From a virus: DNA of 23,425 bases. Within the stretch, counting starts at the first letter, position 1, and each line of letters opens with the position of its first letter. A program made the translations under genes and the position numbers. Under the pieces are notes generated by a model. It saw nothing but the letters and a program-made list of their open reading frames with translations. It did not search any database and was not told the DNA's origin. The stretch is from the IMG/VR virus record IMGVR_UViG_3300047094_001324, positions 1 through 23,425 of that record; one strand, 5' to 3'. Of the stretch, positions 12,434 to 22,786 are shown piece by piece.

Positions 12434-12646
12434 ATGTTACCTAAAATAAAATTAACGGAAAGTGAAATCAGAAACATTTTGAGTCAACATGGTGTAAAAA
12501 CAAATATTTTGGTTGAACAAAGTAATTATACAACTGCAGATATACAGAGTTGGTTAAACTCAAATAAAAGTGCAGGTTTAGATGTTGACGGTAAAATGGG
12601 TATTTTAACGCTTAGGGCCATAAAAAATGCTTTAAATATAGGATAA
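12434..12646 (+). CDS. Small peptidoglycan-binding-domain protein with packaging-like leader
   Basis: A 70-residue protein in two parts. Residues 1-28 form a leader (IKLTESEIRNILSQHG, then ILVE), like those of genes 3241, 12650 and 21629, with a candidate prohead-protease site after LVE. Residues 33-69 look like a PG_binding_1 domain: TADIQSWLNSN, then GLDVDGKMGILTLRAIKNAL with the DGxxGxxT core. Such domains bind peptidoglycan and often sit on phage lysins or virion proteins. There is no hydrolase domain, so it may act as an adaptor or stay in the virion. Three bases separate it from the larger gene 12650, and the two are probably co-expressed late. Confidence 0.78.
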   Translation: MLPKIKLTESEIRNILSQHGVKTNILVEQSNYTTADIQSWLNSNKSAGLDVDGKMGILTLRAIKNALNIG

Positions 12647-12649
12647 GAT

Positions 12650-14731
12650 ATGAAAAGAATGATAGATAGTTTTATAAAAAATATTGTTAGACAAAGTCTA
12701 AATGAAAATTATGGTTTGTTAAATGAGGATGAAAAGTCGTTAGAAAAATGTCCGGCTGGTGGTTTTTGTTTAAATGATGGTAGTTTATTGAAAGCAGAAA
12801 AATTAAATAAAACATTATCTCCGGCGAATAATAGTACTGCGGCTTCACAACTTATTATTAAATTAAAATCAAACTGTAATAATTTAAATTATGGTCCAGC
12901 AAATGAGACTATTGCTAGTCGGGCGGTGGAAGGTATTGGGATTGAACATTCAAAAACATTTACTGACGAAAATAAAGTTAAAAGACTAATTAATACTTTA
13001 GGTTTTCCAGAATGGTGTTTGGGAATAGAACTTGCTCAAGAAAAAGGTTATGCTGATGATGATAATTTTTGGGAGAAATTGTATGAGGGTGGTTTGTATT
13101 CATACACTTATGTAGCAAATCCATCCCTTGAAGTATTTCGTAGAACAATTAAAAAAACAGGAACACTTAAAAAAGACTATGACGAAAAAAGATCAACAGA
13201 TAAAATAAAATGGGATGAAGGATTAAAAAAATCTGGTTGGTGGGATGGTAAATTAATAAATAAAGATAAAGCTTATGCCGAGTGGAAGAAATCAGGGTTT
13301 AAAGACAAACCAATAGAGTATACAATTGGTGGTGGAGGTAATTCCGCTAATCAAGTATCATTTGAAGGATATGATTGTATAACTAATCATCCGGCATTAA
13401 TAAAAACACCAGTAAAAAATTTCCCTAACGGTGTAGGTTATAAATTAGACGTTACCAATCCAACTATTAAAAGTTTTATTTTTGGGGTTCAAAAACAAGG
13501 TCCTAAAGATAGTGCTATTGATCAAGGTGTGATAATGAAAGACGATGGGTCAGGCATTACCGTTAACTTTAATTGTCCAAGTAAATATTTAGAAGTCTCA
13601 CTATCAACTATTGCTTGGGATTATAATGCGGTTATAGATAGTGGTGGAAAAATTGCTTTAACCACAGATCCTGCTCGTGAAGAAAATTTTACAAATGAAA
13701 GTTATAGACATAAAGGTTTCAGACACAATTTATTAACTGAGGTAGAATTGAAATTAAAAGATACAGGTGAAGAAGTTGGTAAGATACAAAGTAAATTAGG
13801 ATTACCTGTGGAAAAAAATCCAACTTTTGGACCAAAGACATTAGCTGCAGTAATTAATCACCAAAAAACAGAAGGTGCTAAACTTACTACACCATTAAGA
13901 ATTGATGGTGTTGTTGATGATGCAACTTACGCATCAATAATGGCAATACAACCACCCCCATTTGAATTATCGGCAGCAAAAAAATCTAAGGGTGACGATG
14001 TTACATTAATTCAAAAACAGTTAGGGGCAAAGGGTGGAACATTTGGACCTGAAACTGAGGCTAAGGTAAAAGAATTTCAAACCAATTATGGTAAAACGGT
14101 TACTCCAGTATTAAGAACTGATGGTGTTGTTGATCAGCCAACTTTTGATTTAATTAAAAAATACAAAGGTTCTGATTCAAATAAAGTTTATTCAGGTAAA
14201 AAACATAATTATGTTATTGGTAATTGGATTAAAGTTACTCCTGAAACTGTAGATGAACAATTAAGTGGTAATGATGGGTATTTTAAAATAACTAATGTAA
14301 CTGAATATACTGTAGTTATTGATGCTGATTTTTTATCTAGTGGGACTACAGGAGGATCAACACAAAGAGTTTTATTTGGTGAAGACGCAAAAAATGGTAC
14401 TCAAGAGGTTATTAAAAGAGATAGAAATAACTCAGGCACAAGAACTAAGGGAAGCACAAGAACTAAGGGAAGTACAAGAAGTCGTACTTCAAGTACAGGT
14501 GATGTGGAGACTAAAAAACGAAGAGATGTACGTAATTCAGAATATTGTGATAGCTTAAGAAAGATAAAAAAACATTTAAATTTAAAGGTAAATTGCAAAA
14601 CATATCAAAGCACATTAAATAAAATTATGTTGGCACTTACAGGTGGAGCTCAAATTAAACCAGTTACCCCAGTTGCCCCAGTTGCCCCAGTTGCCCCAAT
14701 TACACCATCGGGAAATGTAACGATATATTAA
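12650..14731 (+). CDS. Large virion-associated candidate with two peptidoglycan-binding domains
   Basis: A 693-residue protein. Residues 1-26 form a leader (FIKNIVRQSLNENYGLLNED) with L-N-E sites resembling prohead-protease cuts. A Cys-containing region of unknown fold follows to about 370. PG_binding_1-like domains lie at about 374-428 (GKIQSKLG...FGPKTLAAV...DGVVDDATY) and 449-502 (TLIQKQLG...FGPETEAKVKEFQ...DGVVDQPTF). The C-terminal part has a basic Thr/Arg/Ser repeat (GTRTKGSTRTKGSTRSRTSS, about 597-616) and a PVAPVAPVAPITP repeat near the end. No lysozyme, amidase or endopeptidase motif is visible, so the unknown region may hold a novel enzyme or structural fold. It ends at a strong terminator. 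Confidence 0.78.
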   Translation: MKRMIDSFIKNIVRQSLNENYGLLNEDEKSLEKCPAGGFCLNDGSLLKAEKLNKTLSPANNSTAASQLIIKLKSNCNNLNYGPANETIASRAVEGIGIEHSKTFTDENKVKRLINTLGFPEWCLGIELAQEKGYADDDNFWEKLYEGGLYSYTYVANPSLEVFRRTIKKTGTLKKDYDEKRSTDKIKWDEGLKKSGWWDGKLINKDKAYAEWKKSGFKDKPIEYTIGGGGNSANQVSFEGYDCITNHPALIKTPVKNFPNGVGYKLDVTNPTIKSFIFGVQKQGPKDSAIDQGVIMKDDGSGITVNFNCPSKYLEVSLSTIAWDYNAVIDSGGKIALTTDPAREENFTNESYRHKGFRHNLLTEVELKLKDTGEEVGKIQSKLGLPVEKNPTFGPKTLAAVINHQKTEGAKLTTPLRIDGVVDDATYASIMAIQPPPFELSAAKKSKGDDVTLIQKQLGAKGGTFGPETEAKVKEFQTNYGKTVTPVLRTDGVVDQPTFDLIKKYKGSDSNKVYSGKKHNYVIGNWIKVTPETVDEQLSGNDGYFKITNVTEYTVVIDADFLSSGTTGGSTQRVLFGEDAKNGTQEVIKRDRNNSGTRTKGSTRTKGSTRSRTSSTGDVETKKRRDVRNSEYCDSLRKIKKHLNLKVNCKTYQSTLNKIMLALTGGAQIKPVTPVAPVAPVAPITPSGNVTIY
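14436..14480 (+). repeat. Tandem 18-base repeat in gene 12650
   Basis: GCACAAGAACTAAGGGAA occurs twice in tandem (14436-14453 and 14454-14471) with a diverged partial third copy starting GTACAAGAA. It encodes the Thr/Arg/Lys/Gly/Ser-rich repeat and keeps frame, so slippage would change length by six residues. Confidence 0.9.
14660..14698 (+). repeat. Tandem nine-base repeat in gene 12650
   Basis: Four consecutive units of nine bases, one CCAGTTACC and three CCAGTTGCC, encode the P-V-A repeat in the C-terminal tail. The unit is a whole number of codons, so gain or loss keeps frame. Confidence 0.9.
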
Positions 14732-19908: not shown

Positions 19909-21474
19909 ATGAAAAAAATTTACGCAAGTATCGTAATGTTAATGTTTGTTTTCTTAACAAACGCACAAAGTCAGTTTTGGACTGACACTGATTATAAGGG
20001 AGGATTTCCTGTAACAGACAATACACCACAAACAGATTGGACTTATGGGTGGTCTAATTTTGATCCAGAAAATACAAATTACCCAACAACACAAACAACC
20101 GTTAGTACGGACATTACAACAAACACAACTTGGTCAGGAGTAATCAAACTTCAAAACAAGGTTTATGTTAAAAACGGAGCAACTCTTACTATTTTACCGG
20201 GAACAATTATCAGAGGTGACTACGCAACACAAGGAACTTTGATTGTTACAAGAGGTTCTAAACTTATCGCTGACGGAGAACAATTTAATCCAATTGTTTT
20301 TACATCTAACAATCCAATTCAACAAAGAACTGGTGGTGATTGGGGTGGTGTTATTATCTTGGGTAATGCTATTAACAACCAACCTGGTGGTGTTGCAAAT
20401 ATTGAAGGACTTACGGCTACAAATTTTACACAACACGGAGGTACTAACGATAACGATGACTCAGGTGTAATTAGATTCGTACGTATTGAGTTTGCAGGTA
20501 TTCCACTTGAACCAAACAAAGAGATAAATGGTATTACTTTTGGTTCTGTAGGTAATCAAACGTTAGTTGATTACGTACAAGTAAGTTACTCTGGTGACGA
20601 CTCTTTTGAGTGGTTTGGAGGAACTGTAAATTGTAAACACTTAATTGCATATTCATCAATTGATGATGACTTTGATACTGACTTTGGATACAGAGGTAAT
20701 GTTCAATTTGGTTTGTCGATTAGAAATGAAAATTTGTCAGACGCTCCTGGCGACTCAAATTGTTTTGAATCGGATAATGACTCACAAGGTAGTGCGGCAC
20801 AACCATTGACGGCACCTATTTTTTCTAACTTCACAATAATTGGGGCTAAAGCTAACGGGACGGTTTCCCTACCAATTGGTGAAAAATTTGAAAAGGCTTT
20901 CAGATTAAGAAGAAATACCGCAACTTCTGTTTTCAACACTATTGTTACTGGATGGGAAAAAGGATTATCCATTGAAGGTCTACCTGTAGAAGATAATATT
21001 TTAGGAGACACAATGCATTTCCACAGTAACATTCTTTCTAACTTTAACCCTGGTACCGTTTGTATTACACTAACACCTGGATTATTATCATCGTATTTTT
21101 CACAAAACGCAAATGACTCAGTTTCAACACATTTAAACATCAATTGGGTAACACCATTTGTTCCACTTGGATTGACTCCTGATTATAGATTACAAGAAGG
21201 TTCTACTGCTGCGGTTGGTGCAAGTTTTCCACAAGGAGTATTTGGTGATTTAGCATCGGTAAAAGAAAAATCAGATGACTTTATAATCTATCCAAACCCC
21301 GCAAGTGATGTGGTTTATGTTAGTAAAAAATCATACATGGAGATAATCAACCAAAATGGTCAAGTAATCAACAGTGTAAATGATAGTAAGATTGATTTAA
21401 GAAACTTACCTGAAGGTGTGTATTTTTTAAGAGTAAATAAAGTAAAAACTAAAAAACTAATAATTAAGAAATGA
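19909..21474 (+). CDS. Secreted beta-helix protein with T9SS C-terminal sorting domain
   Basis: A 521-residue exported protein. Residues 1-19 are a signal peptide (MKKIYASIVMLMFVFLTNA) with Gln after the cut site, typical of Bacteroidota. Residues about 75-430 are Gly/Asn-rich repeats of a right-handed beta-helix kind (KNGATLTILPGTIIRGD, GGDWGGVIILGNA, VSYSGDDSFEWFGGTVN, SIDDDFDTDFGYRGNVQFG), a layout seen in many Bacteroidota surface proteins. Residues about 455-521 form a type A sorting domain (FIIYPNPASDVVYV, then LPEGVYFLRVN, ending in KTKKLIIKK), recognised by the type IX secretion system. It should be carried across the outer membrane and released or anchored at the surface. It is bounded by terminators with its own promoter, the layout of a phage moron, and was probably acquired from a host. 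Confidence 0.92.
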   Translation: MKKIYASIVMLMFVFLTNAQSQFWTDTDYKGGFPVTDNTPQTDWTYGWSNFDPENTNYPTTQTTVSTDITTNTTWSGVIKLQNKVYVKNGATLTILPGTIIRGDYATQGTLIVTRGSKLIADGEQFNPIVFTSNNPIQQRTGGDWGGVIILGNAINNQPGGVANIEGLTATNFTQHGGTNDNDDSGVIRFVRIEFAGIPLEPNKEINGITFGSVGNQTLVDYVQVSYSGDDSFEWFGGTVNCKHLIAYSSIDDDFDTDFGYRGNVQFGLSIRNENLSDAPGDSNCFESDNDSQGSAAQPLTAPIFSNFTIIGAKANGTVSLPIGEKFEKAFRLRRNTATSVFNTIVTGWEKGLSIEGLPVEDNILGDTMHFHSNILSNFNPGTVCITLTPGLLSSYFSQNANDSVSTHLNINWVTPFVPLGLTPDYRLQEGSTAAVGASFPQGVFGDLASVKEKSDDFIIYPNPASDVVYVSKKSYMEIINQNGQVINSVNDSKIDLRNLPEGVYFLRVNKVKTKKLIIKK

Positions 21475-21628: not shown

Positions 21629-22786
21629 ATGGAAAATAAAAAAATTATTACTGAAGAATTAAGTAGGATTAAAAATCTTATGGGTTATGATAGATCTAAA
21701 ACATTAAATGAAAATATTAATGAAGGTTGGTTTGATACTTTATATGACACTGTGGATGGTGAAATAGCGAGATATTTATTACCTTCAGGTGATATCATTA
21801 CCGCAGATAAACTAAAAGGGGGACCACCTAAAGGGTCGGTACAGTTAAATAGTAAAGATGTAGAAACAGCGCTTGGAGTTGCCAGTGGGGTAAAAACCGC
21901 TTCCTCTCTTCTTGGTGGTGGAGGATCAACTGTGGCGGCAACAGGTGCTGCTAAGGCTGGAGCGGCTGCTGCTGCTGAGGCTGGAGCTGGAGCGGCTGCT
22001 GCTACTGCTGAGGTTGGAGCGGCAGCAACTACTGCGGCTGCGGCAGGTGGAGAAGCCGCTGCGGCGACTACGTTTTTAGGTTTAGGTCCTGTTGGTTGGA
22101 CAATAATCGGAGTTGCCGGAATTGCAGCACTTGGTTATTGGGCAGCAACAAAAGACGATAAAATGAGTATGATTAAAAATTTATTTGGAATTTGTAAGTC
22201 AAGTAAAGATAAGAACAAGTGGAAAAGATATATGAGTGATACTGAAGTTAGAAAAAATTCAGGTATATTATACCATGCTATGGAAGGTTTAGGAACAGAT
22301 GAACCTAAAATTTATGATGTATTTAGATTGTTTAAAAGTCCTGGTGATTTTTGTGCGGTAAGTGAAAAATATGAAAGTACATTTGACGAATCATTATTAG
22401 ATGCTTTAGATGGAGACTTTGATTATGGTTGGGAACCAATTGCAAAATCTTTAGTTGATATGACTAAAAACTACGCTAAAACTGAGTCTGAAGAATATTG
22501 TAAAACTCACGTTCAGGAATGTGCGGACAAATTAAGGTTGTATTGTGAACAAAATCCTAAAGATAATAAATGTAAAGTTTTAAAAACTAATGTTGTTGAC
22601 TTTAAAAATTGTAATGGTGAATACTATAAAGGATGTAAAGGACCAAAAATAGTACAAGTACAAAAATGTTTAGGTGTGAGCGTTGATGGTAAATTTGGTG
22701 AGGATACAGAAAAAAAATTAGAAGAAAAAATAAAAAGAAAAACTTTCAAAGACGAAGACATTAAAATAATATGTGATAAAAAATAA
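21629..22786 (+). CDS. Packaging-leader protein with Ala-rich membrane segment, annexin-like repeat and peptidoglycan-binding domain
   Basis: A 385-residue multidomain protein. Residues 6-20 (IITEELSRIKNLMGY) form a leader like those of genes 3241, 12434 and 12650, followed by LNE and NE sites that could be cut by a prohead protease, leaving a mature start at GWFDTLYD. Residues about 90-147 are Ala/Gly-rich, then a hydrophobic helix (LGPVGWTIIGVAGIAALGYW, about 151-170). Residues about 210-265 resemble one annexin repeat (YHAMEGLGTDEPKIYDVF with the G-x-GTDE signature at 220-225). The C terminus has a peptidoglycan-binding motif (VQVQKCLGVSVDGKFGEDTE). The set suggests an injected or membrane-acting virion protein. 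The gene has its own late-type promoter box and terminator. Confidence 0.82.
   Translation: MENKKIITEELSRIKNLMGYDRSKTLNENINEGWFDTLYDTVDGEIARYLLPSGDIITADKLKGGPPKGSVQLNSKDVETALGVASGVKTASSLLGGGGSTVAATGAAKAGAAAAAEAGAGAAAATAEVGAAATTAAAAGGEAAAATTFLGLGPVGWTIIGVAGIAALGYWAATKDDKMSMIKNLFGICKSSKDKNKWKRYMSDTEVRKNSGILYHAMEGLGTDEPKIYDVFRLFKSPGDFCAVSEKYESTFDESLLDALDGDFDYGWEPIAKSLVDMTKNYAKTESEEYCKTHVQECADKLRLYCEQNPKDNKCKVLKTNVVDFKNCNGEYYKGCKGPKIVQVQKCLGVSVDGKFGEDTEKKLEEKIKRKTFKDEDIKIICDKK

Follow-up and report, generated by a model that had tools for sequence, protein, structure and literature searches.

A single annexin repeat in a protein of an environmental phage: predicted calcium site and possible head packaging

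Annexins are the textbook calcium-dependent membrane module of eukaryotes (animals and plants), later found in some bacteria as well, and classical annexins have four repeats. As for the phages, the genome entry of large myoviruses is poorly understood. The survey by Kodavali et al. (2014, PMC3894181) found no annexins in viruses, and the bacterial annexins it describes include single-domain forms in Bacteroidota. Single annexin domains also occur in toxins delivered by phage-tail-like PVC systems, for which a role in breaching membranes has been proposed (Zhang et al. 2012, PMC3482391). T4 internal head proteins have only the capsid targeting sequence in common (PMC3012670). In the searchable open literature, covered in part, no report of phage-encoded annexins after 2014 was found.

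The DNA analyzed here, referred to as the window, comprises 23,425 nucleotides, positions 1 to 23,425 of the IMG/VR record IMGVR_UViG_3300047094_001324. The gene of interest is an open frame according to the ORF check, and both the ORF and the string YHAMEGLGTDEPKIYDVF lie where a first-pass annotation, made from the sequence alone, had put them. That annotation spoke of a phage protein, which agrees with the origin of the record and with the homologues, located on viral contigs of 75-295 kb. From the N- to the C-terminus the product consists of a tag, a short conserved region, an Ala/Gly-rich stretch, a hydrophobic segment, the annexin repeat, a Cys-containing linker, and a C-terminal domain (Table 1). 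The annotation had likewise named an Ala/Gly-rich membrane segment, and both an Ala/Gly-rich stretch and a hydrophobic segment were found. PHROG matches, to tape measure proteins and to internal proteins of virions, were rejected as low-complexity matches to the former. The latter contains FLGLGPVGW, invariant in the family alignment, and judging by its sequence it is probably membrane-inserted. No typical signal peptide was seen at the N-terminus of the window protein. The full-length AF2 model is poor (pLDDT 49, pTM 0.32), and its top Foldseek match, annexin A8, is not significant.

Table 1. Positions of the annexin-repeat gene and of the parts of its product in the window (res, residues; a slash marks a candidate cut).
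Feature	Position	Strand	Basis or remark
CDS, annexin-repeat protein, 385 aa	21629..22786	+	open frame; other viral contigs carry homologues (45-98% identity)
N-terminal tag MENKKIITEELSRIKNLMGYDRSKTLNENINE (res 1-32)	21629..21724	+	near-invariant in family
Candidate protease sites in tag: LNE/N (after res 28), INE/G (after res 32)	within 21629..21724	+	
Ala/Gly-rich low-complexity stretch (res ~83-147)	21875..22069	+	length and sequence vary (alignment); disordered in AF2
Hydrophobic segment FLGLGPVGWTIIGVAGIAALGYWAA (res ~148-172)	22070..22144	+	hydropathy maximum 1.76
Annexin repeat, helices A-E (res ~205-282)	22241..22474	+	PF00191, PDB profile, AF2, Foldseek
Type II calcium loop MEGLGTDE (res 218-225), predicted	22280..22303	+	sequence
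D263, position of annexin bidentate acidic Ca2+ ligand	22415..22417	+	D/E in 47/48 viral repeats
Cys-containing linker (res ~284-325)	22478..22603	+	C291, C298, C306, C315 invariant (alignment)
C-terminal small domain, weakly peptidoglycan-binding-like (res ~326-385)	22604..22783	+	AF2 pLDDT mostly 75-87

According to sequence profiles, predicted fold, and ligand conservation, the window protein holds one genuine annexin repeat, which confirms the main claim of the first-pass annotation. Against Pfam family PF00191 the protein has an E-value of 5.4e-5, above noise and thus no refutation of the annexin reading, and a score of 23.6 bits, just below the curated cut-off of 25; the nucleotide-level search of the window with this family yields 24-25 bits and is reported as "over cut-off". 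Two homologues that were fetched by similarity to the window protein and not by the loop motif exceed the Pfam cut-off (L003 with 31.5 bits and L033 with 29.7 bits), and 26 of 35 viral repeats match PF00191 at E <= 0.01. When the window protein alone is compared with the PDB using phmmer, annexins occupy the first 43 places (best E 6.1e-10), with no rival family. Profile A5, built from nine sequences gathered through homology with no use of the motif, matches annexin VI with an E-value of 3e-36, followed by many further annexins. Profile A4, from which the sequence through the end of the GxGTDE loop was cut away, still has annexins in all 17 top places, but these matches are weak (best E 0.014). 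Thus, the likeness spans the repeat, with the loop carrying much of the signal but not all of it. Regarding the structure, the AF2 model of the repeat alone, computed with 35 viral sequences, has five helices (pLDDT 91.7, pTM 0.84), and each of the 50 top PDB entries in the Foldseek list is either an annexin structure or a fusion construct with annexin A2 (probability 1.00, E 0.003-0.03); the predicted fold is annexin-like, which again leaves the annexin reading standing. With one core repeat instead of four (or eight), the window protein is not a classical four-repeat annexin.

The first-pass annotation also called the protein packaged. What speaks for this part of the claim, all of it indirectly, is a modular tag whose end resembles a cleavage site of T4-type proteases, together with prohead protease and capsid genes in larger relatives. 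The window-type tag, EELxRIKxLMGYDxSKTLxEN, was found on many proteins with unrelated bodies, and the same is true of two other tag types (EEExxRILxMH and LTESDLxRIVRRVI). An N-terminal sequence of the targeting kind is hence common to unrelated proteins, the tags being not necessarily homologous to each other or to the tag of T4. In the 295 kb phage G002 the tag MKNLLNISEEEKNRILEMHTSATNKHYLxEQ is nearly identical on the annexin protein and on a different protein of 148 aa. The motif [LIV]xE followed by Q/N/S/G/A/D/K stands after the tag in 32 of 37 cases vs 13% of other ORFs, a comparison in which the sequences are not independent and the background ORFs may include non-genes. In large relatives with tagged proteins, which are phages of 230-295 kb, genes were identified for a prohead protease of the gp21 type (E ~1e-24 to 1e-26) and for a capsid protein of the gp23 type (E ~1e-64); in G002 this capsid protein shows LINE/ASS near residue 57. 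No gp21 or gp23 matches were obtained in the contigs nearest the window (G006-G008), which are fragments. A tag with an [LIV]-x-E end, as in the 230-295 kb phages, suggests by analogy with T4 that the window protein is head-packaged.

Tags were also observed outside the annexin family. Modular N-terminal tags followed by [LIV]xE are present on many unrelated proteins (L046-L060 of G002, 295 kb; L061-L074; L081), and such a system may be the hallmark of numerous head-packaged proteins. A tag-like peptide, INEDYTRIMSLMSYKKNTQ, is located at the C-terminus of a second annexin protein and a homologue fragment (L063:8407-10257, L067:19649-19999). A 321-aa protein of the 295 kb phage (L053:8817-9785) combines the window-type tag with a Gly-rich hydrophobic stretch, and no annexin repeat was detected in it. 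In the window itself, a 70-aa protein with an LTES-type N-terminus (12434-12646) adjoins a 693-aa protein (12650-14731) that has a clear peptidoglycan-binding domain (PF01471, E 2.5e-8) and a possible tag; both products are candidates for further packaged proteins.

As for the membrane, a transmembrane-like segment, defined as a 19-residue stretch with mean hydropathy of 1.6 or more, is present in 20 of the 39 non-redundant viral annexin-repeat proteins vs 30 of 260 (11.5%) other ORFs of the same contigs (odds ratio 8, p 6e-8, with kinship ignored and a background that may include non-gene ORFs). In nearly all 20 proteins the segment is N-terminal to the repeat, and for about half of the viral annexin-repeat proteins no such segment is predicted. 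The C-terminal domain, which the first-pass annotation had described as peptidoglycan-binding, weakly resembles such domains in sequence, at a sub-threshold level. In homologues, PF01471 and PF09374 appear with E-values of 0.029-0.12, all below cut-offs (for instance, 0.029 for PF01471 in L032 and 0.042 for PF09374 in L018), and neither was reported for the window protein. The PDB profile search with this domain returns an endolysin, an ErfK/YbiS-family protein, and a cell-wall peptidase chain at E 0.3-0.9, all outranked by designed TPR proteins.

The neighbours of the gene in the window are auxiliary genes (RNA ligase, methyltransferase, glutamine synthetase-like) and not structural ones, and gene order is kept among relatives. 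In comparison with its neighbours the annexin protein diverges faster, with 51% vs 83% for the RNA ligase in L028 and 57% vs 92% in L027. In the alignment, L010 joins an L003-like N-terminal half to an L009-like annexin and C-terminal half, which suggests module exchange. A 521-aa secreted protein is encoded at 19909-21474 of the window; its T9SS C-terminal sorting domain (PF18962, E 7.7e-12) indicates a Bacteroidota host. In L016, L028, and L030 the annexin gene is directly followed by a homologue of it (69%), which did not turn up near the annexin gene in the other relatives compared, as if the 19909-21474 gene were mobile.

Dozens of further environmental phages possess annexin repeats. The degenerate pattern A-M-x-G-x-G-T-D/N-E retrieves 118 stretches from IMG/VR, and an iterated profile search over all fetched loci yields 57 proteins with 59 domains, 39 proteins of viral contigs being non-redundant at strong E-values. 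The viral proteins include short ones of 133-210 aa, some anchored and others not, longer ones of 240-620 aa, many of which bear a tag, and the longest of 840-880 aa; the fragment G006 (86 kb) carries two annexin-repeat proteins. Among INPHARED phages, neither the window protein nor L033 had a tblastn match at E <= 1. A stricter pattern retrieves 20 stretches from 84,980 prokaryote species, all of them true annexin repeats according to the viral profile. Many of these are in Bacteroidota, so a bacterial reservoir exists in the likely host phylum, and some proteins of other phyla have 3-5 repeats. In genome_contigs, searched with the profile A2 patterns, no relative sharing the architecture of the window protein was found. 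In Bacteroidota genomes (L202, L205-L207, L209-L211, L213, L215), short chromosome-encoded proteins of about 140-190 aa carry one annexin repeat; they resemble the phage ones, and several have a visibly hydrophobic N-terminus. On one viral contig, three adjoining small genes (L105:3173-4930) each encode a hydrophobic N-terminus and one annexin repeat, and the three chains together could form a multi-repeat annexin.

The reading preferred here, to which slightly less than an even chance is given, is a head-packaged protein that acts in the envelope after ejection and combines a hydrophobic anchor, a repeat contacting lipid in a Ca2+-dependent way, and an end weakly resembling peptidoglycan-binding domains. 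The gene would belong to a large, probably T4-like, Bacteroidota-infecting phage, with the product acting on the envelope as an accessory protein. The N-terminal tag would be a capsid-targeting peptide, cut after L/I-x-E by the prohead protease, and the mature protein would be packaged and would leave the head together with the DNA. The hydrophobic segment would then insert into a membrane of the host envelope, the annexin repeat would dock on anionic phospholipid via a single Ca2+ site of type II, formed by loop 218-225 and D263, at periplasmic calcium concentration, and the small C-terminal domain would touch the cell wall, so that the inner membrane might be fixed or perturbed at the entry site. 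Against this reading, the affinity of one repeat for calcium and lipid may be too low to be relevant. Also weighing against it are the homologues with a degenerate or undetected repeat (L035, L038, L039), the viral annexin-repeat proteins in which no transmembrane segment is predicted, the auxiliary surroundings of the gene, and the sub-threshold likeness of the C-terminal domain. Alternatively, a real annexin repeat could act inside the infected cell, in a protein that would be produced in the course of infection, be tethered to the inner membrane, and serve superinfection exclusion, envelope remodelling, or lysis. The transmembrane-like segment and the cell-wall-like end agree with such a role, as do the position of the gene amid auxiliary genes and the small proteins with a transmembrane segment and one repeat in phages (L105, with three genes consecutively, and L126) and in Bacteroidota genomes. 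A tag and protease-like site common to unrelated bodies, however, fits packaging better, and the N-terminus lacks a typical signal peptide. Action inside the cell is an unlikely but serious competitor to the packaged envelope protein.

The proposed calcium-dependent step would depend on the loop, and here the G-x-GTDE signature pointed out in the first-pass annotation is present. The window repeat carries M218-E-G220-L-G222-T223-D-E (signature M-x-G-x-G-T-D-E) and D263, and thus has the residues of a type II Ca2+ site, i.e., a GxGT loop (G220, G222, T223) and D or E about 40 residues on (D263). Among 48 aligned viral repeats G220 is kept in 47, and G222 and T223 are kept in all 48, a conservation that is partly circular since much of the set was chosen by the loop motif. 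The column of D263, which lay outside the motif search pattern, holds D or E in 47 of 48. Annexin-repeat homology is firm; binding of Ca2+ and lipid is plausible, as is the role in passing the host inner membrane during injection that the first-pass annotation proposed. The annexin fold could still be kept as a structural or protein/nucleic-acid-binding module, with calcium and lipid binding lost or irrelevant. In support, the loop is broken in the homologue L035 (GLGNTN), no annexin repeat is detectable in L038 and L039, which keep the tag and the C-terminal domain, and a single annexin repeat is expected to show low calcium affinity. In contrast, loop and acidic ligand are kept together in nearly all viral repeats, although many share no more than 17-25% identity with the window repeat, and loss of binding is accordingly considered rather improbable. 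A convergent or chance match to the annexin loop with no annexin homology is rejected as highly improbable, since, even with the window repeat by itself slightly below the Pfam cut-off and weak E-values for the loop-free profile, the profile, PDB, and Foldseek evidence covers the whole repeat and sequence and predicted fold agree across it.

Taken together, diverse conserved viral annexin repeats, anchors, and packaging-like tags suggest that phages make use of Ca2+ for docking on membranes, possibly while the genome enters the host. As a tentative generalization of the packaged envelope protein, environmental phages, some of them T4-like, may carry a wide class of annexin repeats, of which the capsid-tagged ones would be head-packed, with periplasmic calcium signalling inner-membrane docking during DNA entry. 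Viral single-repeat annexins also provide material for probing what one repeat can do.

In comparison with known systems, the window repeat shares with annexins (PF00191; annexin A5/A6) the five helices, the GxGTD loop between helices A and B, and the acidic ligand about 40 residues on. Unlike annexin A5/A6, with four or eight repeats, the window protein has one, in a chain that further comprises a tag, a hydrophobic anchor, and a C-terminal domain. Single repeats are also present among bacterial annexins, and small Bacteroidales proteins with a hydrophobic N-terminus and one repeat resemble some of the phage ones, whereas the patterns used retrieved nothing from genome_contigs with the architecture of the window protein. 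The toxins of PVC-SS likewise contain a single annexin domain, theirs in injector-delivered proteins; the window protein, in contrast, has no toxin domain, and its delivery, if any, would be from the phage head. With T4 internal head proteins it has in common a modular N-terminal tag on unrelated bodies and a protease-like site behind the tag, and a gp21-type protease is encoded in larger related phages. The tag sequences, however, differ from those of T4, and the window protein is a putative packaged protein.
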